IMG/VR virus record: IMGVR_UViG_3300032401_000430
Location: 1-35,684 of that record
Source: a virus
DNA length: 35,684 nucleotides
Reading direction: 5' to 3' (one strand)
Position numbers and translations under genes: made by a program. The notes beneath the pieces were generated by a model, which did no database searches, was not told the origin of the DNA, and was given only the letters and a program-made list of their open reading frames with translations. Every line of letters starts with the position of its first letter. Positions within the stretch are counted from its first letter, which is position 1. Shown one piece after another: positions 6,671 through 35,684 of this stretch.

Positions 6671-7353
6671 ACACAATAGAAGAACTAATAGAGGGATGGA
6701 AGGACACCCCCGAAAGTCACCAAAGAATACATATGCTATTCTGCGACAAGACCAACGAAACACCACACCTTAAAGCATTAAGGGATTGGATTGAAGTATC
6801 TATATTTGGATTTGGTGAACGTTCATTTTATTGGATGTTTAAATTGATTTGTGATACCTTGCCTGATAACTTTAAGTTTTTAGAGATAGGGGTATTCAGA
6901 GGTCAAACGTTAGCACTAATCCAAACACTAAAACCAAGTGCAAAGATTTACGGTATTACTCCTTTAGATTCAACTGATGGACATTGGGAATCCAACTACG
7001 AAGCAGATATAAAACATTTACACAATACATTCAATTTAAAGCAACCAAACATTATTAAAGGACTATCAACAGAGCCTGAAATAATCACAGAAGCAAACAA
7101 AAGAAGTTACGACATAGTTTATATCGATGGTGGTCATACTTACGATGTAGTAAAACAAGACATTAAAAACTATGCACCAATGGTAAAACAAGGCGGTTAT
7201 TTAGTTATAGACGATTGTTGCCACAAATACCAAATACCACATGGTATGTTCCCTGGAATAGAAACAGTTAGCAGAGCAGTTGATGAATGGAATCAAGAAG
7301 GATTTAAAGAACTATTTAGCGTAGTTCACATACGAGTATTTAAAAAATTGTAA
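6667..7353 (+). CDS. SAM-dependent methyltransferase (class I, Methyltransf_24-like)
   Basis: The 228-residue protein has the SAM-binding loop EIGVFRG at residues 73-79, the acidic YIDGGH at 152-157 and VIDDCC at 180-185. This pattern is typical of small O-methyltransferases in sugar or antibiotic pathways and is unlike the DNA methyltransferases at the array. Position at the end of three glycosyltransferase genes suggests that it methylates the sugar they build. It overlaps the upstream gene by 4 bp and is followed directly by the terminase genes. Confidence 0.8.
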   Translation: MNTIEELIEGWKDTPESHQRIHMLFCDKTNETPHLKALRDWIEVSIFGFGERSFYWMFKLICDTLPDNFKFLEIGVFRGQTLALIQTLKPSAKIYGITPLDSTDGHWESNYEADIKHLHNTFNLKQPNIIKGLSTEPEIITEANKRSYDIVYIDGGHTYDVVKQDIKNYAPMVKQGGYLVIDDCCHKYQIPHGMFPGIETVSRAVDEWNQEGFKELFSVVHIRVFKKL

Positions 7354-7355
7354 TC

Positions 7356-7763
7356 ATGCCAAAACCTAAATTAATAGAAACCCCCGAAAGAATGTGGGAA
7401 CTATTTGAGAACTATAAAAGGTTACTTAAACTTAATCCTATTATAGTAGTTGATTATGTAGGAGGGAAAGGAAGTAGAGCCGAAAGAGAAAAAGAAAGAC
7501 CTTTGACAATGGAAGGATTTAGAGAGTATTGCTATTCTGAAAGTCTAACAATCAAACATTATTTTGATAATACAGATAATAGATACAGCGAATATAGTAC
7601 AATCTGTACGCGCATAAAGGATGCTATACGACTTGACCAAATCGAAGGAGGTATGGCAGGTATCTACAATCCAAGCATCACCCAACGTTTAAATGGATTA
7701 GTAGAGAAAACCCAAAACGAGAATATAAATAGAGAAGTTCCTTTGTTTCCTGATGTCGAATGA
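7356..7763 (+). CDS. Terminase small subunit
   Basis: This 135-residue helical protein lies directly before the large terminase and overlaps it by 11 bp. Its sequence (residues 40-110, with EGFREYCY and a stretch ending in IYNPSITQRLNGL) matches the DNA-binding small terminase type common in Bacteroidetes phages. Small terminases bind the packaging site and feed DNA to the large subunit. The start is the ATG just after the preceding stop. Confidence 0.8.
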   Translation: MPKPKLIETPERMWELFENYKRLLKLNPIIVVDYVGGKGSRAEREKERPLTMEGFREYCYSESLTIKHYFDNTDNRYSEYSTICTRIKDAIRLDQIEGGMAGIYNPSITQRLNGLVEKTQNENINREVPLFPDVE

Positions 7764-8928
7764 GTTTAAAAGAACGACTGCAATAAATAAACTTGCCCGA
7801 ATGAAGGCAAGGAAAAGAGTTGTGCAAGGTGGAACGAGTGCAGGTAAAACGTTTGGCATACTTCCATTACTAATCAACACAGCGTTAAAAAGTCCTAATC
7901 GAGAGATAAGCGTAGTTAGCGAATCAATACCACATTTAAGACGTGGAGTTATAAAAGACTTTCTTAAAATAATGGTTTGGACTAATCGTTATACAGATAC
8001 TCAATTTAATAAGTCTTTACTTACTTACACATTTAACAACGGTTCATTCATTGAGTTCTTTTCAGTGGACCAACCCGATAAATTAAGAGGTGCAAGGCGC
8101 GAGATACTTTATATCAATGAAGCTAACAACATAGACTTTGAAAGTTACTACCAGTTAGCAATCAGAACAAGCGATACGATATGGTTAGACTATAACCCAA
8201 CGAGTGAGTTCTGGGTTCATAACGAAGTACTAACCGAACCTGATAGCGAACTAATCATACTTAACTATTTAGATAACGAAGCCTTACCCGAAACGATTAG
8301 AAACGAAATTGAGTTAAACAGAGAAAAGGCAAAGCATAGTGACTACTGGGCTAATTGGTGGAGAGTGTACGGATTAGGGGAAACAGGCAACTTACAAGGC
8401 GTAGTATTTAACAACTACTCTTTAATAGACAATCTACCTGAAGAAGCTAAGTTATTAGGTTACGGAGCAGACTGGGGATTTACCAACGACCCGACAACGT
8501 TAATCGGTATATACCAATGGAACGGGCAATATATCTTCGATGAAATAGTCTACCAAAAAGGATTAGTCAATAGTGAAATAGCAAACCTATTTAAGAGTAA
8601 GAACGTAACAAAGGTACATTACATCTATGCTGATAGTGCCGAACCTAAAACGATTCAAGACATAGCAAACTATGGATTTAGAATAAAAGGAGCAGACAAA
8701 GGCAAAGACAGCGTGATGTTTGGTATTAGCTTAATGCAGGAACATAAGTTTATAGTAACTAAACAATCCACGAACTTAATAAAAGAGTTACGAAGTTATG
8801 TATGGGATACCGATAAGTCAGGGAAACAAGTAAACAAGCCTATTGATGCTTTTAATCATTGCATTGATGCGATAAGATATTACTTTACATCACTAAATAA
8901 AAACTATGGAAAGTATGATATTAGGTAA
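7753..8928 (+). CDS. Terminase large subunit
   Basis: The 391-residue protein has Walker A QGGTSAGKT at 25-33, a Walker B-like ILYINEAN at 118-125 (E123 the likely catalytic base) and the coupling motif LDYNPT at 145-150. The C-terminal nuclease part has acidic residues at GADWGF (D240), YADSAEP (D294) and a late FNHCIDAIRY segment. It cuts concatemeric DNA and pumps it into the prohead through the portal. Length is short but normal for the PBSX-like terminase type. Confidence 0.95.
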   Translation: MSNEFKRTTAINKLARMKARKRVVQGGTSAGKTFGILPLLINTALKSPNREISVVSESIPHLRRGVIKDFLKIMVWTNRYTDTQFNKSLLTYTFNNGSFIEFFSVDQPDKLRGARREILYINEANNIDFESYYQLAIRTSDTIWLDYNPTSEFWVHNEVLTEPDSELIILNYLDNEALPETIRNEIELNREKAKHSDYWANWWRVYGLGETGNLQGVVFNNYSLIDNLPEEAKLLGYGADWGFTNDPTTLIGIYQWNGQYIFDEIVYQKGLVNSEIANLFKSKNVTKVHYIYADSAEPKTIQDIANYGFRIKGADKGKDSVMFGISLMQEHKFIVTKQSTNLIKELRSYVWDTDKSGKQVNKPIDAFNHCIDAIRYYFTSLNKNYGKYDIR

Positions 8929-8964
8929 TTTGTTATATATTTGTAGCGTGTTAATATAACAAAT
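8928..8964 (+). promoter_or_regulatory. Promoter box with an 11-bp perfect inverted repeat
   Basis: ATTTGTTATAT (8928-8938) and ATATAACAAAT (8954-8964) are perfect inverted repeats with a 15-nt spacer. TATATTTG at 8936-8943 is a perfect TAnnTTTG box, overlapping the left arm. The right arm runs into the ATG at 8963. This is a strong candidate operator for the small insert that follows, and its design recalls the promoter at 3582. Confidence 0.55.
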
Positions 8965-9115
8965 GATAAATATTTATTGCAAATGTGGTATATGTGGAAC
9001 GTATTTTGATGTGACTAAGAAAAAGAAATCAAAGTTTTGTAGCCCTAAATGTAGACAAAAAAATTATAGAAATGAAAAAGATAATAGGAATAATGTTACT
9101 CTTAACCTTGCTTAG
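8963..9115 (+). CDS. Small zinc-ribbon-like protein
   Basis: The 50-residue protein has CKCGIC at residues 6-11 and CSPKC at 26-30, followed by a basic tail. The two cysteine clusters are spaced as in small zinc ribbons. Such peptides often bind DNA, RNA or a protein partner. It has its own promoter/operator and overlaps the following lipoprotein gene by 44 bp in another frame. Start is the first ATG after the promoter. Confidence 0.6.
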   Translation: MINIYCKCGICGTYFDVTKKKKSKFCSPKCRQKNYRNEKDNRNNVTLNLA

Positions 9116-9299
9116 TTGCGAAAAAGAGAAAGTAGAATGTAATTGTGGTTTAGTCCTTAGCGACAATGTAAATGATTATTCAGTTGTAATCCGTAACGAT
9201 TGCAGTAAGAATGAAAAGAGATTTTATTTGCAGCCTGGCGATTGGATGAATGCCCATGTAGGAAGTAACTATTGTATAACAAACATAAGTAGTTGGTAA
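9072..9299 (+). CDS. Lipoprotein
   Basis: The 75-residue protein starts with a classic lipoprotein signal: KK, a hydrophobic core and lipobox LLSC, with the lipidated Cys at residue 16. The mature part is short and has four more cysteines, so disulfides are possible. Phage lipoproteins often block superinfection by related phages at the envelope; that role here is inference. Together with the zinc-ribbon gene it forms an insert between terminase and tail genes, typical of a moron that could be expressed alone. Confidence 0.7.
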   Translation: MKKIIGIMLLLTLLSCEKEKVECNCGLVLSDNVNDYSVVIRNDCSKNEKRFYLQPGDWMNAHVGSNYCITNISSW

Positions 9300-9839
9300 A
9301 TGAATTGGCACGACATAAGCATTAAACAGTTTTACGAACTTCAAAAGGCAGGGGAGTTATATGAAGATGAGTTTGATAAAAAGTTAGCTGTATTAGCTGC
9401 AATCGAAGGAATAACATTTGATGAAGCCTTAGAACTAAAGATTAGCGAAATAGCACAACTAACAAAGCATTACGGATTCTTAGACCAACCGATTAAAACA
9501 AAGGTAGTAACCAAGTGGAACGGATATAACTTTGAATTGAAGTTGAGTAATTTAAAGGCAGGTCAAATGATTGACTTCTTAGAAACTTGCAAAGCAGATA
9601 TTAACACGAGTATTCATGTTATACTTGCAATCTTAGACACCACTGATAAGGACTTTGACAAGAAGCATGATGACATTCTAAATAACTGTCCTATCACAAT
9701 AGCAAAAGGAATAAGTGATTTTTTTTTTCACAAGTACAACTTATCACCCCTAATTATCCAAGACTATTCCCTCAACAAATTGAAGGAGATGAACAAGATA
9801 TTGACGAACCAACACCAAATATTAGCGGAAACTTTGTAG
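9300..9839 (+). CDS. Tail assembly chaperone-like protein, zero-frame product
   Basis: The 179-residue protein is soluble and begins directly after the lipoprotein stop. It contains a run of ten T at 9719-9728, and a conserved-looking reading frame continues in the -1 frame beyond it. This is the arrangement of tail assembly chaperone genes (G and GT in lambda), where a fraction of ribosomes shift to make a longer form. It lies upstream of the tape measure but separated from it by three genes, so the assignment is likely rather than certain. Confidence 0.6.
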   Translation: MNWHDISIKQFYELQKAGELYEDEFDKKLAVLAAIEGITFDEALELKISEIAQLTKHYGFLDQPIKTKVVTKWNGYNFELKLSNLKAGQMIDFLETCKADINTSIHVILAILDTTDKDFDKKHDDILNNCPITIAKGISDFFFHKYNLSPLIIQDYSLNKLKEMNKILTNQHQILAETL

Positions 9840-9988
9840 ATTTGTATTCATGGTTCATTTGGTTGGAAAAGTTGGCAAATGTTTGTAATTGCAAAGTAGT
9901 TGAAATATACGAATGGAAGGCAGCCGAACTATTAAACTGGATGGAATACATATTGAACAAAGAAGCATTTGAAAGTTTACAGAAATGA
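9300..9988 (+). CDS. Tail assembly chaperone, -1 frameshift product
   Basis: The zero frame runs to the T10 run. After a one-base slip back at about 9728 the frame stays open for 86 codons and stops at TGA 9986-9988, which overlaps the ATG of the next gene at 9985. The predicted product is about 229 residues with a new C-terminal part rich in Trp, Glu and Leu (including EWKAAELLNWMEYIL). That part fills the otherwise empty gap 9840-9984 and has the composition of a real protein. Slippage could be ribosomal (T TTT TTT) or by RNA polymerase on the T run. Confidence 0.65.
9719..9728 (+). promoter_or_regulatory. T10 slippery site
   Basis: Ten T residues follow GA and precede CAC. In the zero frame they encode D-F-F-F-H. 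The heptamer T TTT TTT allows perfect re-pairing of both tRNAs after a -1 slip. This is the only long T run inside a gene that joins two open frames in the window. Confidence 0.65.
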
Positions 9989-10566
9989 GCAAAGAGTTAG
10001 ATTTTTTAGAAACCTTTTTTCAAACGGCTATTGATAAAATAGTTTCCAACCTTTCAACTATGAAAGATAGTAAAGGTCACAACAGATTTGGAAGCGGAGT
10101 AACAGCACAAGAGGTAGGACAGCCCGACAACTTACAACTAACTGAATACACTAACAAGTGGATAGTGCAAATTTATATGCCATACTATTATGAGTTTGTT
10201 GATGAAGGCGTAAGAGGTTGGGCAAATCAAAAAAAGAACACAGGCAAGTTTAAGTTTAAAAAGAACGGCAGACCGATACCACGTGAAGCAATCCTTTCAT
10301 TCATGAGAAACAGGGGAATAGTTTACAACGGTTATCAAGGTGACAAGAAAAAAGGCGTTAAGTCAAGACAATCCATTAAAGATAAACTAAACCAATTAGC
10401 TTACATAATCGGGCGAAGCATAAAGAAAAAAGGAACTGAAGGAGTGCCGTTTTATTCTTCTGTAATGAGTGAAGACTTTTTTAAATCCTTTGAAACACAG
10501 TTTTTAGATGTGTACGGAGATAAGGTTTTAAATGACATCGAGTTCGTTTTTAAAAACAAAAGCTAA
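9985..10566 (+). CDS. Virion protein, possibly HK97 gp10-like tail or neck component
   Basis: This 193-residue basic protein has YYYEFVDEGVRGW near residue 70, a segment seen in gp10-like neck or tail-completion proteins, followed by many lysines. It starts inside the stop codon of the frameshift product, so it is probably coupled to it. It lies between the chaperone-like gene and two large tail genes. The family assignment is tentative; its membership of the structural module is more secure. Confidence 0.55.
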   Translation: MSKELDFLETFFQTAIDKIVSNLSTMKDSKGHNRFGSGVTAQEVGQPDNLQLTEYTNKWIVQIYMPYYYEFVDEGVRGWANQKKNTGKFKFKKNGRPIPREAILSFMRNRGIVYNGYQGDKKKGVKSRQSIKDKLNQLAYIIGRSIKKKGTEGVPFYSSVMSEDFFKSFETQFLDVYGDKVLNDIEFVFKNKS

Positions 10567-10587
10567 ATAATTACTTTTTAGGGTAGT

Positions 10588-11877
10588 ATGGCAATTACTA
10601 TCCAACAGCAACCAACAGCATCAGGATTTTATCCAGTTGGCAATCCAATAGAATATTTAGTCAGTTCATCTTTAAGTACTGCACCAAATTTTAAAATAGA
10701 AGTCAAGGTATATAGCCCTGATTCAGCAGTTAGTCCATTGGCAACAATGCGGTATGATATTATACCTTCAACTACTCAAATCTTAGCAGATGTAAGAAAG
10801 ATATTACAATCTACAATTACTGAAAACATTACCAATTTAAGAACAAGTGCAGTAGGAGTTAAGAATGAAACAACCAAATGGCATACAGCTAAAGTTACAT
10901 TTGGTGAAAGTTACGGAGCAATCCCAAGCGTGACAGGAAGCCCAACCAGTTCAAACATAGTAACGTTTTGGAATGGAGCATTAAAATATCAAGGATGGAA
11001 CACAACTACATTAGGTAAATATATTATCCCTTCAGGTGGAGGTCAAGTATTAACACGATTATTCTTAACACCATTTACTAATTCGGCAGCCGTTCCACAC
11101 TCTACGGTAGTAGCATCACCATCTACATATTTTAAAGGGAGTTATAATGTTCGTAAAATAACATCCGCACAATTAGTTCAATTAAGTTGGTTGTGGTCAG
11201 GGACAGGAGGAACACAATCATCACCTAACATAGAAGCCTTTAAGACTAATTTTTCATCTTCTATATTAGGAGGTTCTGCTTTAGCAAGTGTTCAATCACA
11301 GCAAAGTATGAATATTGGAACAAGTGCATTGATTGCATTAGGTGTGCCATTATCAGGATTAAATAGTACTTATACGTGGTTACTTGTATCACTATGGAAT
11401 AACAGTTATCAACAAACACAAAGCTATTTATTTGAAATAGACTGGTCGCCATGTTCAAGGTTTGACAGTTATGAAATACATTGGTTAAATCGTTTGGGTG
11501 GGTGGGATAGTTGGATATTTAATAAGCGAAGCCGACACGCCACCGAAATAGAACGACAAGGATATAACCCTACATTCCTTCCAATATCAGGAAGCACAAT
11601 AGTAAGAAACAGTTATGACATAACAGGAAGAAACTTTGTAGTAAGCACCAAAGAAACATATCTTTTAAATTCAAATTATTTAAAGGCTTGGGAGTTAGAA
11701 GGGTTGGAAGATTTAATTACATCACCTTCGGTTTATTGGAATAGTGCTGATGGGTTTATAAACATAGCAATTAAAGACCCGAATGTATTTGAACACAAAA
11801 CAAACACAGTAGATAAATTATTTAACCTATCGTTTGCATTTGAAATTGATAACCAGGACATCAGACAACTACCATGA
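10588..11877 (+). CDS. Tail structural protein
   Basis: This 429-residue protein is rich in Ser, Thr, Asn and aromatic residues, as expected for beta-rich virion proteins. It starts MAITIQQQP, a beginning I associate with tail proteins of Bacteroidetes phages. It overlaps the next gene by 4 bp, so the two are probably made together. A distal tail or tail-tip role is likely from position, but no catalytic motif is visible. Confidence 0.6.
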   Translation: MAITIQQQPTASGFYPVGNPIEYLVSSSLSTAPNFKIEVKVYSPDSAVSPLATMRYDIIPSTTQILADVRKILQSTITENITNLRTSAVGVKNETTKWHTAKVTFGESYGAIPSVTGSPTSSNIVTFWNGALKYQGWNTTTLGKYIIPSGGGQVLTRLFLTPFTNSAAVPHSTVVASPSTYFKGSYNVRKITSAQLVQLSWLWSGTGGTQSSPNIEAFKTNFSSSILGGSALASVQSQQSMNIGTSALIALGVPLSGLNSTYTWLLVSLWNNSYQQTQSYLFEIDWSPCSRFDSYEIHWLNRLGGWDSWIFNKRSRHATEIERQGYNPTFLPISGSTIVRNSYDITGRNFVVSTKETYLLNSNYLKAWELEGLEDLITSPSVYWNSADGFINIAIKDPNVFEHKTNTVDKLFNLSFAFEIDNQDIRQLP

Positions 11878-14738
11878 TAAATGTATTTATAAACGGGGTT
11901 AATTGTCCGACTGTTAATGATGATTCAATATTAATTACCAAATCAATAGTAGATATTGAAAACCCCGAACAAAAGCAAATAGACCATTCAAAAGGATTCT
12001 TAATACAGAACACAGCAGCAGTATCTACGTTATTTGGGATGATATTTGAAATTAATAAAGAAATTCAAAACACATCAACTACTAATTTCAATACAGACTT
12101 TAATCCCAACTTAAAGGCTAAATGTGTTGTAATGAATGACAATGCGGTGGTGATGAGTGGGTTTTGTCAAATGATAGACATAGTAATCTTAGACGGAAAC
12201 AAAATAGCCTACAATATTAATGTCTATGCTTCTATTGGGAATTTCTTTAACGATATTAAGAACGGTGTATTAGGTGATATAGATTTTAGCGATCTTAACC
12301 ATAACTGGACTAAAGCAGTAATTGAGGCAAGTTGGACACCGACATTAGGAGTAGGATATACTTACCCAATGATTAACTATGGATTAAGTTCGAGTTTTAA
12401 TACTTGGAACGTAGAATACTTTAGACCTGCAATCTTTGTTAAGGAAATAGTAGATAGAATTTTTGCAGATGCAGGATGGGCGTATTCAAGTACTTTTTTT
12501 AATACCACACGATTCAAAAGTTTAATAGTTCCTTTCTCTGAAGAGAATATGTTTAACGACAATGCCACAATTGTAGAGAGAACTTTTAAAGTTGGTAAGG
12601 CTTCAGTAAGTGCAGTAAGTGGTGATTGGTCAGACAATGCAGGTCAACCTGTTTTGGTTCTTAATACTGATTCGGGATTGATTGGTGGAACAACAATGTT
12701 CAACGATTTAGGCAGTAATTTTAATACAGCAACAGGCAAATGGACGTGTGCTGCAAATGGTAATTATGCTTTTGGATTGTCGGGAAGTGCTGTAATGGTA
12801 AACGCTGTTACTCCTTATCAAACATTAACAGGGCAATGTAAATTGTATGTGGTATTAGAACGAAGCGGAACACGATATTATACACAAGCATTAGAGATAG
12901 CTTTTATATTTACAGCAGGTTCAAACACAAGTGATTCAACTTCCTTTAGTTTTACATCTAACGCCTTTCCTGTTGATATTGGGGATGACATTTACTTGAT
13001 AGCAGGGGAATTTGAAGAGGATAGTCAGGTATATTTAACACAAGTAAGTAAAGCAGACGGTGATATGGATGTAACATTTACAAATCTTATTCTTAATTGT
13101 GTTCCCCAACCTGAATTGGTTTATGCTGACACCGTAAGTTTAAACAACGTATTACCAACCGATATTAAAAAGAGTGATTTTTTAATGGGATTAAGTAAAA
13201 TGTTTAATCTGTACTTTGAACAAACCAACGATAAGACATTATTAATAGAACCACGTGAAGATTACTACACTGCAACGACAGTAGATTGGACAACCAAAAT
13301 AGACATAGGGCAAGATGTTAAATTGACACCTATGGGTATGAACCAACAAAAAAGATACAAGTTCACCTATGAACAAGACACCGACCGACTAAATAATTCA
13401 TACTTTGCAGCCTATAAAGAAATTTATGGGAGTGAGTTAGTTGATATTAATACGGATTTTTTAACCGAAACAAAAGAGATAAAACCAATATTTGCAGCTA
13501 CTCCGTTAAGTAATACAGCACTCAAAGACGATAAAGTAATGAGTGATATTGTTTTTATAGACCAAAACGGAACAGTAAAGCAAGGCAAAACAAAATTAAG
13601 GATTTTATATTGGGGAGGGTTAAAGAATTGTAAGACTTGGACATTCTATGAACAAGCAGGTGTAAGCCCTACCAATAAAACACAATACCCATATGCAGGA
13701 CACTTAGATAGTCCAACGGCAGCAACATTTGATTTATGTTTCGGTACACCCTACAATGTTTATTATGATTGGAACTTTGGCAGTAGGAGTTCACCGACTT
13801 ATACAGATTCAAATTTATACACCCAATACTGGCATCAAACCATAAAAGAACTAACGAATAAAAATAGCAAAGTATTAGAGGCTTATTTTTATTTAACGAT
13901 GGCTGATTTTATTACTTTAAGTTTTAGAAGTCAATACTTTATTAAAGATGCTTATTACAGATTGATAAGTGTCGAAGATTTTGATGTAAGTGCAACGAAG
14001 CTAACCAAATGTAAGTTACTCAAAGTAGATAGGGAAGCAGCCTACACAACCAGTTCAAAAACATTGAACGGGGGGATAGGAACTTTTGATAGTGGCAAAA
14101 AAATACCTGTAAGATTACCATTAGACAGGTTTAAAGATACAAATACTTATACCACCGATAATGCGTATTCAGGAAATACCAATAACTCATCAGGAAGAAA
14201 CGGAGTTATAAAAGGTTCAAGTAATAAAGTGTTTGCCGATGATGTGTATATTTTCGGTACGGATGGGGCGACTGTAAGTAGTGACAGAGTGATGTTATTT
14301 AATTCAGATGCAACTACTATGCCACGTGAAGGTGCAATGTTTAACGGTTCTTTATTAGAATACAAAAAAGAAATTACAGTCAATACAGCATGGTTGCAAG
14401 TTGCAGACAATGGTGACTTTCAATTTGTTCTTCCAAAGTTAGCAACAAATGAACATTATGAAATAACCAGATTCTATTTACAGATAGGAGCAGGAACTAT
14501 TAATTACAGTTGGGGAGCAACAGGAAATATTACATTGGAAACCGTTACAAGTGCAAGTGTGGTAGGAACGATATTAGGTGCGGATTGGTTAGGGGTTGGT
14601 GAAGGAACTATTGCAGTAGGAACGGTAGCAGCAGCAACTGATTTTAGTGAAGACATAAAACTAAAAATAAACGGATTGTATTCAGCAGGAAATAGAAGTG
14701 TAAGATTAATAATTTATTATAAAATAGTAATAGTATAA
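11874..14738 (+). CDS. Large tail-tip or baseplate-like protein
   Basis: At 954 residues this is the longest protein in the genome. Its first part (about 1-160, MINVFINGVNCP then a segment on nested strands) and its beta-rich remainder suggest a baseplate hub or tail-tip protein. The C-terminal part is rich in Gly, Thr and Val. It directly precedes and overlaps the tape measure by one base. No hydrolase or lysozyme motif was found, so its role in host binding or tail tip assembly is inferred from size and position. Confidence 0.6.
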   Translation: MINVFINGVNCPTVNDDSILITKSIVDIENPEQKQIDHSKGFLIQNTAAVSTLFGMIFEINKEIQNTSTTNFNTDFNPNLKAKCVVMNDNAVVMSGFCQMIDIVILDGNKIAYNINVYASIGNFFNDIKNGVLGDIDFSDLNHNWTKAVIEASWTPTLGVGYTYPMINYGLSSSFNTWNVEYFRPAIFVKEIVDRIFADAGWAYSSTFFNTTRFKSLIVPFSEENMFNDNATIVERTFKVGKASVSAVSGDWSDNAGQPVLVLNTDSGLIGGTTMFNDLGSNFNTATGKWTCAANGNYAFGLSGSAVMVNAVTPYQTLTGQCKLYVVLERSGTRYYTQALEIAFIFTAGSNTSDSTSFSFTSNAFPVDIGDDIYLIAGEFEEDSQVYLTQVSKADGDMDVTFTNLILNCVPQPELVYADTVSLNNVLPTDIKKSDFLMGLSKMFNLYFEQTNDKTLLIEPREDYYTATTVDWTTKIDIGQDVKLTPMGMNQQKRYKFTYEQDTDRLNNSYFAAYKEIYGSELVDINTDFLTETKEIKPIFAATPLSNTALKDDKVMSDIVFIDQNGTVKQGKTKLRILYWGGLKNCKTWTFYEQAGVSPTNKTQYPYAGHLDSPTAATFDLCFGTPYNVYYDWNFGSRSSPTYTDSNLYTQYWHQTIKELTNKNSKVLEAYFYLTMADFITLSFRSQYFIKDAYYRLISVEDFDVSATKLTKCKLLKVDREAAYTTSSKTLNGGIGTFDSGKKIPVRLPLDRFKDTNTYTTDNAYSGNTNNSSGRNGVIKGSSNKVFADDVYIFGTDGATVSSDRVMLFNSDATTMPREGAMFNGSLLEYKKEITVNTAWLQVADNGDFQFVLPKLATNEHYEITRFYLQIGAGTINYSWGATGNITLETVTSASVVGTILGADWLGVGEGTIAVGTVAAATDFSEDIKLKINGLYSAGNRSVRLIIYYKIVIV

Positions 14739-16750
14739 TGGCAGAAAAAAAAATAAGTTTAGACTTAGAGATAAACAAAGGTAATACCGATAAGACCGTT
14801 AAGTCTATCAAAACCGAATTACGTGAAGCAAAAGAAGAAGCTATTGCCTTAGCACGAAAGTTTGGGGAATTTAGCCCTGAAGCACAAAAGGCAGCAGCCA
14901 AATTAGCAGGGTTAAAGGATGAAATGGGTGACCTTAACCAAGCCGTACAAGGTTTAAACCCTGATAAATTTGCAAGACTTGCCACATTAACCAACGGAGT
15001 AGTAAGAGGATTCCAAGCCGCACAAGGTGCAATGGCTTTGTTTGGCAAATCAGGAGAAGATGTAGAGAAGGCTATCCTTAAACTTCAAGCAGTGATGGCA
15101 CTTGCTGATGGTATTCAGGGTGTTTTAGATGCAAGAAAGAGTTTTAGTGCCTTAGCGAATCAAATTATTGGACCTGTTATCGGTGCATTTAAAAAGATGG
15201 GTACCGCTATGCGTGGATTAGTTGCGGCATCAGGCATTGGATTACTTGTAGTGGCATTAGGTGCAATTGTAGCTTATTGGGATGATATTAAGGAGGCATT
15301 ATCGGGCGTAAGTAAGGAGCAAAAGCAACTTAATGAATTGGCAAAACAAAATCTTGATATAAATATTGAGGCGGCTAAAAATTCGGCAACAGAAAGAACT
15401 AATCTTGAACGACTTTATAAGGTATCTACCGATTTAAAAATATCAGCCAAAGAAAGAAAAACAGCGGTAGAAGAATTACAGGCAACTTACCCGCTTACAT
15501 TTAGCAATTTTACAGCCGAAGAAATAGCATTAGGCAAAGCCAAAACAGGATACGATAATTTAAGTGAAAGTATATTGGCATCTGCTTTGGTTAAAGCAAG
15601 AACTGGGTTATTAGATAAAAAAGCTCAAGAATTTGCTGAACAGGAAATATTAGACTTAGAAAAAGTTGCTAAGAAAAAAGGAGTTTTAGCAAAACAAGAA
15701 GCAGACCTTGCCACGCAGAAAAATAAGCGATTTGCTAAAGACCTTACTGACGCCATTGTGCAAGGTAAAGCTGATTTAAAAGTGTATGAGGATGGTATGG
15801 CTGCAAAGAAAGTAGCCTTTGAAAAAAGTAACTTAGCTTTATTGGTAACCAAGGATATTGAAACGGCTAAATTAGTGGTTAAGGAAAAGGAAGAAGTTGA
15901 AAAGATAAAAGCGATAAAGGCAAAGGAGATTTCGGATGCCAAAAAAACACAAGAAGAAATAGATATAGCAAAGAACGAAGCCAACGATGAAAGGCTAAGA
16001 GTTTTAATAAATAGAAGGGATAAGGAAGTAGCAACACAAAAGAACTTAGCTAAAATTCTTAAAGAAGTTCAAGAGGAAAGTATAAAGTCAGATAAAGAAA
16101 TAAAATTAAGACAGGCAAAGGATGTAGATGAATTTAATCAGACTGCAATAAAAGGAGTAGAGGATAGGAATAATAAGGTAGATGAGTTAAATAAAAAACA
16201 TAAAGAAGACCAACTTGCAAAACAAAAGGCATATGAAGAAAATTTACAATCTTTAAAATCTCAAGCAGTAACAGCAGGGTTTGAATTGCTAAGAGCATTA
16301 AATCAAGAGGGTGATAATGCGACAGAAGCAGCACAGAAGAAAGCCTTTGAACGTAACAAAGCAATGGCAATAGCAGAAACAGTTATTACCACTTATCAAG
16401 CAGCAGCATTAGCTTATAAGAACGGATTACAAACAGGAGATGTAACACAAACCACATCTATATTAGGTGCAGCCGTTGCAGTTGCACAAGGTTTAGCAAA
16501 GTTGGTAATAATTAAAAAACAAACCTTTAAAGGTTCAAGTTCAAGCAGTACAACGTCAAGTGGAGGCGGTGGAGGTTCAGTAGGTATTCAAGCACCACAA
16601 ACAGGCTTTACCCAAATAAGAACACCAAACCAAAACCCAAATAATCCACAGCAAAAACAACTACCGATTAAAGTATTTGTAACTCAAAAAGATATTCAAG
16701 ATGCAAATAACACAGCCGATAGAATAACATCTAAGGCAGTAGTAAAGTAA
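14738..16750 (+). CDS. Tape measure protein
   Basis: The 670-residue protein is mainly alpha-helical with long charged coiled-coil stretches (about 20-60, 290-480). A hydrophobic segment at about 160-182 is typical of tape measures that help DNA cross the membrane. Near residue 610 there is a Ser/Gly-rich linker. Tape measures set tail length at roughly 1.5 angstrom per residue, which would give a tail near 100 nm. The absence of a sheath gene points to a non-contractile tail. Confidence 0.85.
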   Translation: MAEKKISLDLEINKGNTDKTVKSIKTELREAKEEAIALARKFGEFSPEAQKAAAKLAGLKDEMGDLNQAVQGLNPDKFARLATLTNGVVRGFQAAQGAMALFGKSGEDVEKAILKLQAVMALADGIQGVLDARKSFSALANQIIGPVIGAFKKMGTAMRGLVAASGIGLLVVALGAIVAYWDDIKEALSGVSKEQKQLNELAKQNLDINIEAAKNSATERTNLERLYKVSTDLKISAKERKTAVEELQATYPLTFSNFTAEEIALGKAKTGYDNLSESILASALVKARTGLLDKKAQEFAEQEILDLEKVAKKKGVLAKQEADLATQKNKRFAKDLTDAIVQGKADLKVYEDGMAAKKVAFEKSNLALLVTKDIETAKLVVKEKEEVEKIKAIKAKEISDAKKTQEEIDIAKNEANDERLRVLINRRDKEVATQKNLAKILKEVQEESIKSDKEIKLRQAKDVDEFNQTAIKGVEDRNNKVDELNKKHKEDQLAKQKAYEENLQSLKSQAVTAGFELLRALNQEGDNATEAAQKKAFERNKAMAIAETVITTYQAAALAYKNGLQTGDVTQTTSILGAAVAVAQGLAKLVIIKKQTFKGSSSSSTTSSGGGGGSVGIQAPQTGFTQIRTPNQNPNNPQQKQLPIKVFVTQKDIQDANNTADRITSKAVVK

Positions 16751-34429: not shown

Positions 34430-34599
34430 CTGAAATAGAAATAATTAAAACAGAAATAAAAGCCTTATACGAATTTAGAGGGCAGCTTTGCGACCAACTA
34501 AAGATGGAAAAGTCCTGCGACAAAGCGTATTTAATTTCAAATACAATCAGAGGAATAGTGAAATCTGAACGTGAACTAAGTTTTAAACTAATGAAATAA
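34426..34599 (+). CDS. Hypothetical small helical protein
   Basis: A 57-codon frame couples to both neighbours (ATGA at its start, TAATG at its end), filling a space otherwise unassigned. It is helical with many Glu, Lys and Ile and two cysteines at 22 and 31. A longer frame on the opposite strand here is unlikely, because all genes around run on the + strand. Confidence 0.6.
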   Translation: MTEIEIIKTEIKALYEFRGQLCDQLKMEKSCDKAYLISNTIRGIVKSERELSFKLMK

Positions 34600-34901
34600 T
34601 GCAATTACAACTAATGGGCAGACAGATAATATATCCTTTCTCTTCATCTCAATTTGAAGATGCTTGGTTAATGTGGAAAGCATATAAAAAAGAGCAGTTT
34701 AGATTCACTTATAAATTTATGGGAGAACAAGCGGCACTTAAATCATTGGGAGAAGATTCAAACTATAATGAAGAGTTAGCAATACAAATGATTAACAGGG
34801 CTATGGCTAACGGTTACAGAGGCATATTTCCGATAAAAGGAATGATTAAACAATCTACCGATAAAAGTATTTTTGACCAATTAAGTGAAAGATATAAATA
34901 A
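34599..34901 (+). CDS. Small phage protein, replication-associated type
   Basis: The 100-residue helical protein has SQFEDAWLMWKAYKKEQFRFTY near residues 17-38 and a Ala/Asn-rich middle ending in GIFP. From memory this resembles C-terminal parts of phage replication proteins and short relatives of them. It is the last backbone gene before the methyltransferase array; its stop codon overlaps the AAC of hairpin element C. Confidence 0.55.
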   Translation: MQLQLMGRQIIYPFSSSQFEDAWLMWKAYKKEQFRFTYKFMGEQAALKSLGEDSNYNEELAIQMINRAMANGYRGIFPIKGMIKQSTDKSIFDQLSERYK

Positions 34902-35022
34902 CGTTTACGGCTTGGCGAAATGGGGGAATTATACCCACAAAAGCCGATTAGAATTACTAATGTTCAATAACAAATAAATGATGATAGAAAGCAGTCAGCC
35001 CCCATTTTGCCAAACCGATGTT
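34900..35022 (+). repeat. Hairpin element C (attC-like), left edge of the array
   Basis: The left arm at 34909-34926 and right arm at 34999-35016 are inverted copies matching at 16 of 18 positions. AAC at 34900-34902 and GTT at 35020-35022 flank the arms. The loop shares TAGAATTACTAA with element A and contains the start codon of the third methyltransferase. The array begins here. Confidence 0.75.
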
Positions 35023-35550
35023 ACCAGCAGCCCTTTTCGTAGGGTTTGGGAAATGCCTAATTCAAACACTTTTGATATTAAGTGTATCAATAAACTGATA
35101 CATAAATACCACAATTCAGAAATGAAAAGCATAGACCCATTTGCTAATAAAAACAGGATTGCAAAAATTACAAATGATTTAGACCCCGAAATGAAGGCAG
35201 ATTATTGTATGGATGCACTTGATTTTTTGAAGCAGTTTGAAACTGGTAGCATTGAATTTGTATTATACGACCCACCTTATAGCCCAAGACAAGTAAGTGA
35301 GTGCTACAAAAAAATGGGTAGAACTGTAAATATGGAAACTACTCAATCTTCATTTTGGGGTAACTTAAAAAAAGAGATTGCAAGGGTAACAAAAGCAAAT
35401 GGTATTGTGATTTCATTTGGTTGGAATACAAACGGAATAGGAAAAACAAAAGGGTTTGAAATACTCGAAATATTAACAGTAGCTCACGGTGGTCAGCATA
35501 ATGATACGCTTTGTACAGTCGAACGTAAAATTAGCGGACTGTTCGATTAG
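34978..35550 (+). CDS. DNA adenine methyltransferase-like protein
   Basis: The 190-residue protein has DPPYS at residues 98-102 and DPFA at 53-56, matching the catalytic and cofactor motifs of a small adenine methyltransferase family seen in phages and plasmids. It belongs to a different subfamily from the other two. The ATG at 34978 lies in the loop of hairpin element C, but here the hairpin arm is read in another frame than in the others (no FAK peptide). An ATG at 35053 would give a version without the hairpin-coded part. Stop at 35548-35550. Confidence 0.8.
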   Translation: MMIESSQPPFCQTDVTSSPFRRVWEMPNSNTFDIKCINKLIHKYHNSEMKSIDPFANKNRIAKITNDLDPEMKADYCMDALDFLKQFETGSIEFVLYDPPYSPRQVSECYKKMGRTVNMETTQSSFWGNLKKEIARVTKANGIVISFGWNTNGIGKTKGFEILEILTVAHGGQHNDTLCTVERKISGLFD

Positions 35551-35562
35551 GGTTGCTGGTAA
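35020..35562. repeat. Terminal inverted repeats around methyltransferase module 3
   Basis: GTTACCAGCAGCCC at 35020-35033 is matched by GGGTTGCTGGTAAC at about 35550-35563. The reverse complement differs at one position (13 of 14). The odd base is the eleventh, as in the other two modules. Confidence 0.7.
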
Positions 35563-35684
35563 CGTTATCGGGCTTGGCGAAGTGGCTGAACCTGAAGCTA
35601 AATAGAATTACTAAACTTTAAAATTAAAAACGAATGTTAATAGAAGAACCGAACAGCCATTTTGCCAAACCAGTGTTATCGCCA
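35560..35684 (+). repeat. Direct terminal repeat, right copy
   Basis: Identical to 3-127. It includes hairpin element A and the first 51 bp of methyltransferase gene 1, so the gene at 77 is repeated here only in part. This is not a second gene. Confidence 0.9.

Follow-up and report, generated by a model that had tools for sequence, protein, structure and literature searches.

The IMG/VR virus record IMGVR_UViG_3300032401_000430, analysed here over its whole length of 35,684 nt (the window), encodes a terminase and carries genes for three different DNA methyltransferases, each with its own folded element; this arrangement raises the question of whether these genes are mobile cassettes and, if so, which system moves them. 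We consider it probable (roughly 0.83) that all three are cassettes belonging to an integron-type system of Bacteroidota; the phage record in which they occur has no recombinase of its own. All array features described below lie on the + strand. The left border of the array, AT|AACG (34898–34903), was recognized by sequence, and its AAC is overlapped by the TAA stop codon (34899–34901) of the preceding phage gene (ORF 34599–34901). Cassette C comprises a folded, attC-like recombination site of the form AACG...TGTT (34900–35022; covariance model 101 bits, E = 1.1e-24) and a gene for a DNA methyltransferase-like protein of 190 aa (34978–35550) that was assigned through PHROG 11619 (E = 4.8e-53) and had no Pfam match; its start box GTTACCAGCAGCCC (35020–35033) pairs with its end box GGGTTGCTGGTAAC (35550–35563). 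The folded site of cassette A is present in two identical copies, one at the right end (35561–35677) and one at the left end (4–120) of the window (91.8 bits and E = 3.4e-22 for each), and the cassette A gene (77–955) encodes an N6/N4 DNA methyltransferase of 292 aa (Pfam PF01555, E = 9.6e-33), with a start box GTTATCGCCAGTAC (118–131) that pairs with the end box GTATTGGCGATAAC (955–968). Cassette B has its site at 966–1088 (94.6 bits, E = 6.4e-23), a gene for an N6/N4 DNA methyltransferase of 250 aa at 1021–1773 (PF01555, E = 4e-18), and a start box GTTACCAGCAGTGCC (1086–1100) that pairs with the end box GGCATTGCTGGTAAC (1787–1801); the latter is also the right border of the array, and the same border was found in other phages with unrelated flanks. 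Box assignments rest on sequence and, for cassettes A and C, on the within-cassette complementarity test described below. The start codons of all three genes are inside the hairpin loop, and the ORFs run on through the right arm.

The covariance model thus recovered all three elements where the earlier note had placed them, and the methyltransferase assignments of that note held for A and B by Pfam and for C by PHROG. Its claim that the three genes lie in tandem across the contig junction stands in part: the three gene modules are real, while the order C-A-B depends on a terminal repeat of 125 nt (3–127, identical to 35560–35684), which means that either the genome is circular or assembly was interrupted at a repeated site. 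The bases before the two repeat copies differ (GC at 1–2, GG at 35558–35559), possibly because some of the population has another cassette upstream or because of misassembly. As the note had stated, no recombinase was seen among the ORFs of the window, either beside the array or elsewhere, with three distinct sites present, and no attI-like motif was found at the right end of the array (motif score −7.7); both results count against the explanation we propose. The closest relatives by terminase (L280–L282) show approximately 81–91% DNA identity over most aligned blocks and do not have the cassettes; near the array position they are too divergent for an exact empty site to be demonstrated. No relatives of the array-flanking genes were present in the viral contigs searched, and no phages similar to positions 7501–15400 of the window were found.

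Sites A, B, and C share an AACG, a left arm close to GCTTkGCGAAg, an A-rich loop of 60–70 nt, a right arm close to TTTTGCmAArC, and a TGTT; the left spacer (about 5–6 nt) is longer than the right spacer (1 nt), in agreement with the asymmetry noted earlier. The hairpin architecture is real, as the two-arm pattern gave four matches in the window and none in 100 shuffles. Single-strand DNA folding gave z values of −3.4 for B and −3.35 for C; site A folded more weakly on its own (−0.95 to −1.2) and, despite this, belongs to the same covarying family. Across 73 sites, 96.9% of pair cells were standard, both-side changes were seen in 18 of 19 inner pairs, and the covariation score was 0.52, as compared to 0.11 after shuffling and at most 0.10 when the alignment was slid. 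Two G.T pairs were nearly invariant (67 and 72 of the 73 sites), and on the opposite strand these become mismatches. Of 405 sites, 288 folded better as the AACG strand, and so did 151 of 167 reconstructed circle sites; this seems to come about through the conserved G.T wobbles and one C.A mismatch, extrahelical bases are not clearly present, and in chromosomal cassettes the AACG strand is the bottom strand of the gene, as in attC.

A feature overlooked in the earlier note is that the outermost boxes (for cassette A, GTTATCGCCAgTAC...GTAtTGGCGATAAC) pair across each gene, that is, between the two ends of a cassette, and not inside one site. Cassette A spans GTTATCGCCAgTAC to GTAtTGGCGATAAC, cassette B spans GTTACCAGCAgTGCC to GGCAtTGCTGGTAAC, and cassette C spans GTTACCAGCAgCCC to GGGtTGCTGGTAAC, each with complementary outer boxes, as expected from a circular cassette with a single site. 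Among 171 phage and chromosomal cassettes, the eight bases next to GTT/AAC showed a mean complementarity of 5.35/8 within a cassette, as compared to 3.23/8 across one site; shuffling gave 3.10, with 3.41 as the highest of 2000 shuffles. Seven of the eight bases matched in 70 of these cassettes. Such pairing between the ends of a cassette is the hallmark of integrons.

The arm pattern was found in more than 119 viral stretches, a minority of which are chance matches, and in at least 120 genome stretches that, among the matches listed, all belong to Bacteroidota or Chlorobi by record title; in our searches the site family itself was found only in Bacteroidota and their phages. Sites (E ≤ 1e-4) were detected in 79 of 148 evenly drawn Bacteroidota genomes, a lower bound because few candidates were scored per genome. 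No match to site C was found in E. coli genomes and none to module B in plasmids; six Bacteroidota plasmids match a chromosomal site. Plasmid sites occur in Chryseobacterium sp. SNU WT5 (NZ_CP041688.1) as well as in Myroides, Emticicia, and Riemerella, and the Chryseobacterium plasmid also carries a recombinase, indicating that the system can be mobile. One chromosomal-site match each was seen in the Flavobacterium psychrophilum phages 6H, 2A, FPSV-D15, FPSV-D35, and FPSV-D17.

In chromosomes, covariance and pattern searches placed the sites beside numerous unrelated single genes and adjacent to an integrase, the outcome that the earlier note had named as support for a cassette system. In 37 site-bearing genomes, the best matches to integron integrases were often on the same contig and directly adjoined the sites. 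For 15 of 20 such genes whose surroundings were inspected, a one-way array begins within 0.4–5 kb, mostly downstream of the recombinase gene, which reads towards it; for example, G026:C8 has about 25 sites at 11.2–35.3 kb and the recombinase at 36 kb, and G032:C35 has a similar array at 1.6–23 kb and the recombinase at 25 kb (covariance model). This adjacency recurred in an independent genome sample. Among the 148 Bacteroidota genomes, sites were present in 47 of 52 with the recombinase (E ≤ 1e-50) and in 32 of 96 without it (p = 8e-12). The 32 genomes that have sites and no recombinase at this threshold argue against our explanation, as do some recombinase relatives without nearby sites: none were found near L263, L264, and L271, there was only a partial match near L262, and L267 is at the end of a contig.

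In 12 of 13 arrays that could be tested, the first cassette has its partner box 33–145 nt (446 nt once) past the stop codon of the recombinase gene, and a shared motif, approximately GCGTATATAAACNA|GTTA, precedes this junction. The conserved, attI-like sequence is usually 60–150 nt past this stop codon. When a matrix built from the 12 arrays was applied elsewhere, scores above the 99th percentile of background were reached behind 12 of 21 close relatives of the recombinase, with the matches mostly at +66 to +104 nt. By its position and conservation, this sequence is a putative attI. Folded single-strand sites and cargo without an enzyme of its own would also suit single-strand transposition by an HUH (IS200/IS605-like) enzyme recognizing end hairpins; we consider this the least probable of all readings, since complementary ends that vary by cassette do not fit that mechanism, and the same holds for the long head-to-tail arrays that adjoin an attI-like site and a tyrosine recombinase.

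The candidate enzyme for the integron-type system that we favor is the Bacteroidota tyrosine recombinase encoded beside the arrays, and the suggestion of the earlier note that the cassettes might belong to an unrecognized system or to one driven by a host enzyme is consistent with it. The catalytic set R204, K229, H294, R297, H320, and Y329 is invariant in 14 recombinase sequences. The protein scores 221 bits (cut-off 220) against the NCBI model “site-specific tyrosine recombinase/integron integrase” and matches NCBIfam NF040815 (XerA) at its cut-off; the integron integrase profile splits in two on it, below its cut-off. Residues 74–250 and 270–345 align with residues 5–181 and 243–318 of IntI4 (2a3v), and the 61 residues 182–242 of IntI4 are replaced by 19, so that the IntI-specific insert is absent; approximately 42 residues are missing in array-adjacent recombinases. 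This counts against our explanation, as the additional-domain insert is held to be essential in integron integrases (PMC8138268), a need that is also asserted by the title of Messier and Roy 2001 as cited in PMC2426708. An AlphaFold2 model of the recombinase (mean pLDDT 84, pTM 0.57) resembles both XerA and IntI4, the XerA structure 5hxy giving the top Foldseek E-value. In the tree, the array recombinases cluster together (98/96), separately from Xer (100/100), including XerC/D of the same genomes, and from IntI1 and IntI4 (100/99); with two IntI sequences and an arbitrary root, this tree cannot place the array clade relative to IntI and Xer. In many array recombinases, the core domains are preceded by an additional N-terminal domain, about 65 residues long and containing W..WHLPD (e.g., L218, residues 1–65).

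These data bear on whether the genes could be canonical integron cassettes, that is, ordinary attC sites used by an ordinary IntI integrase. Anatomy and logic are the same, the NCBI model quoted above carries the name, and IntI1 recombined, in E. coli, one of two sites of Polaribacter phage P12002L (PMC9892861). However, of 437 R boxes, only 33 on one side and 29 on the other conform to GTTRRRY, the observed box being close to GTT-R-K-S-N-G, which bears out the earlier observation that the bases beside GTT depart from the attC consensus. Moreover, the adjacent recombinases lack about 42 residues of the IntI insert and form a clade apart from IntI1 and IntI4, and no match in the 37 genomes passed the curated integron integrase cut-off. 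We therefore regard the canonical reading as unlikely. The system works like an integron, and it departs from a strict member of that class in two of the features tested, the IntI insert and GTTRRRY; because its recombinase and its folded sites both differ from those of textbook integrons, it has apparently been overlooked in Bacteroidota.

Phage and chromosomal cassettes differ in layout and content. In 133 of 138 phage cassettes the main gene follows the site, and in 122 of 127 chromosomal cassettes it comes first (p = 5e-62); all 23 chromosomal cassettes examined beside integrases have one gene and then the site, in the same direction. The earlier statement that the site precedes the gene is thus correct for phages, while in chromosomes the site is on the opposite side. 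The phage ORF begins inside the site in 86 of 129 cassettes, which would suit a reading of the hairpins as inherited, immobile transcription or translation signals (terminator or leader) of the methyltransferase genes. Such a role is very improbable. It is contradicted by the exact presence or absence of cassettes between sister phages; in addition, the sites occur with unrelated genes, chromosomal cassettes have them at the opposite end of the gene (122:5), and Rfam gave no match within the window. DNA methyltransferases account for about 42 of 108 phage cassette proteins (approximately 39%; summed Pfam family counts of 32 N6/N4, eight C5, one Dam, and one D12), as compared to one of 88 chromosomal cassette proteins (approximately 1%). 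The latter are diverse and include four GmrSD restriction domains, one DarT, and one AIPR, suggesting that chromosomal arrays may hold defence genes.

The ends of many phage arrays also match the chromosomal attI motif, with 28 of 46 above the 99th percentile and 17 above the 99.9th; ends such as those in L095, L049, L065, and L113 look as if phages had an attI of their own. On a terminase-bearing contig (L034, IMGVR_UViG_3300020045_012733), a recombinase relative at 6889–7686 lies beside seven sites at about 8564–11475, possibly a complete phage-borne system; in the tree, this recombinase shares a clade with relatives from L018 and L108. The L018 contig (IMGVR_UViG_3300043411_001575) has 38 model matches in 40 kb (about 77–116 kb), almost all with the same orientation, and a recombinase lies at the end of this stretch; PF03237 terminase was not found on it.

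Evidence for recombination under our reading is comparative and comes from presence or absence and from shared borders. Cassette B occurs in several copies between unrelated phage flanks, and these copies have identical borders, T|AACGTATGG to TGCTGGTAAC; as the left flank varies, the site in phages travels with the gene behind it. The Flavobacterium phages hemulen9-1 and filifjonk9-1 differ by one cassette of 468 bp, with the junctions ..TTTCTTATAACG|cassette..GTTTGCTAACG|TATGTGG.. and ..TTTCTTATAACG|TATGTGG.., between flanks that are 99.0% and 96.7% identical, while the difference between hemulen9-1 and stinky9-1 consists of two cassettes at TTTGTTAACG|, which amount to about 1.18 kb and include one methyltransferase, between flanks that are more than 99.8% identical; flank identity across all phage pairs was 96.7–99.9%. 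Modules are thus present or absent in related phages exactly at the AAC/G border, as the earlier note had foreseen; borders fall at TAACG, and their position is resolved to within these five bases. Since the 468-bp cassette holds hypothetical genes, phage cassettes are not all methyltransferases; the earlier interpretation of mobile cassettes carried by a phage is supported, with this correction. In filifjonk9-1 and hemulen9-1, nearly the same methyltransferase gene (L310:2686 and L311:3448, sense) has different hairpins, which suggests that the site itself can be exchanged.

Precise border exchange could stem in part from homologous recombination between similar sites. Phage genomes are mosaic, and conserved hairpin stretches could seed exchange, so that a phage's own recombination might shuffle the modules, with the hairpins serving as short shared linkers. 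We doubt that this accounts for the array as a whole: the arms of neighbouring sites differ, yet the joins are at TAAC/G and not within shared arms; the variable outer boxes match within each cassette; and chromosomal arrays adjoin a recombinase and a conserved attI-like site. This reading is about as unlikely as that of canonical integron cassettes.

The integron-type explanation, by comparison, may be outlined as follows. A cassette would consist of one gene and one folded site, whose AACG..TGTT strand would fold in single-stranded DNA; a host recombinase would cut at the AAC/GTT box, acting on phage cassettes as well. The cassette would move as a circle, its joined ends completing the outer stem, and might enter attI or another cassette border, including those in phages. 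With a translation start of its own inside the site, a phage cassette would function wherever it is inserted, and the methyltransferases may protect phage DNA from host restriction enzymes.

Compared with sedentary chromosomal integrons, the Bacteroidota arrays likewise combine a recombinase, an attI-like site, and one-gene cassettes in one direction; the sites are imperfect palindromes with conserved structure and variable sequence, the outer boxes of a cassette are complementary, and one strand, the bottom strand of the gene in chromosomal cassettes, folds better. Unlike in integrons, the recombinase is without the IntI insert and frequently begins with an additional domain at its N-terminus, the R box is approximately GTT-R-K-S-N-G, strand choice seems to be based on conserved G.T wobbles and one C.A mismatch, the array is usually 3′ of a recombinase gene that reads towards it, and gene orientation relative to the site is reversed in phage cassettes. 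The recombinase resembles XerA and XerC/D in sequence (NF040815; 5hxy), but falls in a separate clade and adjoins cassette arrays and attI-like sites.

For the phage cassettes, there is a precedent in CALINs, clusters of at least two attC sites with no integrase among them. Qi et al. 2023 reported attC clusters with methyltransferases in phages, including P12002L (PMC9892861), so that the claim of an unrecognized system holds for the Bacteroidota system and not for the association of phage attC sites with methyltransferases. P12002L resembles the window in being a virulent phage of Bacteroidota that has attC-like sites and genes for DNA methyltransferases and no integrase, and its junctions have the TAACG..TGTTA format seen here, with arms of another sequence type; unlike here, its cluster was treated as ordinary attC by means of integron tools and was not linked to a Bacteroidota recombinase or to chromosomal arrays. 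The attC taxon models include no Bacteroidota (PMC8352920). We found no description of the Bacteroidota system in the literature covered, which comprised neither subscription papers nor preprints and may thus have missed an earlier description; as far as this literature shows, the phylum-wide system, the unusual recombinase, the attI-like site, and the gene-reversed phage cassettes are undescribed. A wider interpretation, which we hold tentatively and at somewhat less than even odds, is that of a separate integron lineage with a Xer-like recombinase lacking the IntI insert and sites read through wobbles and not extrahelical bases, occurring in much of the Bacteroidota and exploited by phages with attI-like sites of their own and a gene-reversed pool rich in anti-restriction methyltransferases.

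Integrons have been regarded as almost absent from Bacteroidota, with one complete case, in Salinibacter, reported by IntegronFinder 2 (PMC9024848), whereas the sites described here occur in more than half of the sampled genomes, many of which have full arrays and a recombinase. Integron-type gene capture would therefore be a main route of gene exchange in Bacteroidota, and the need for the IntI insert would be called into question. The system also offers a concrete mechanism for the swapping of DNA methyltransferases among phages, and the pair of sister phages with and without cassettes makes cassette mobility directly testable.
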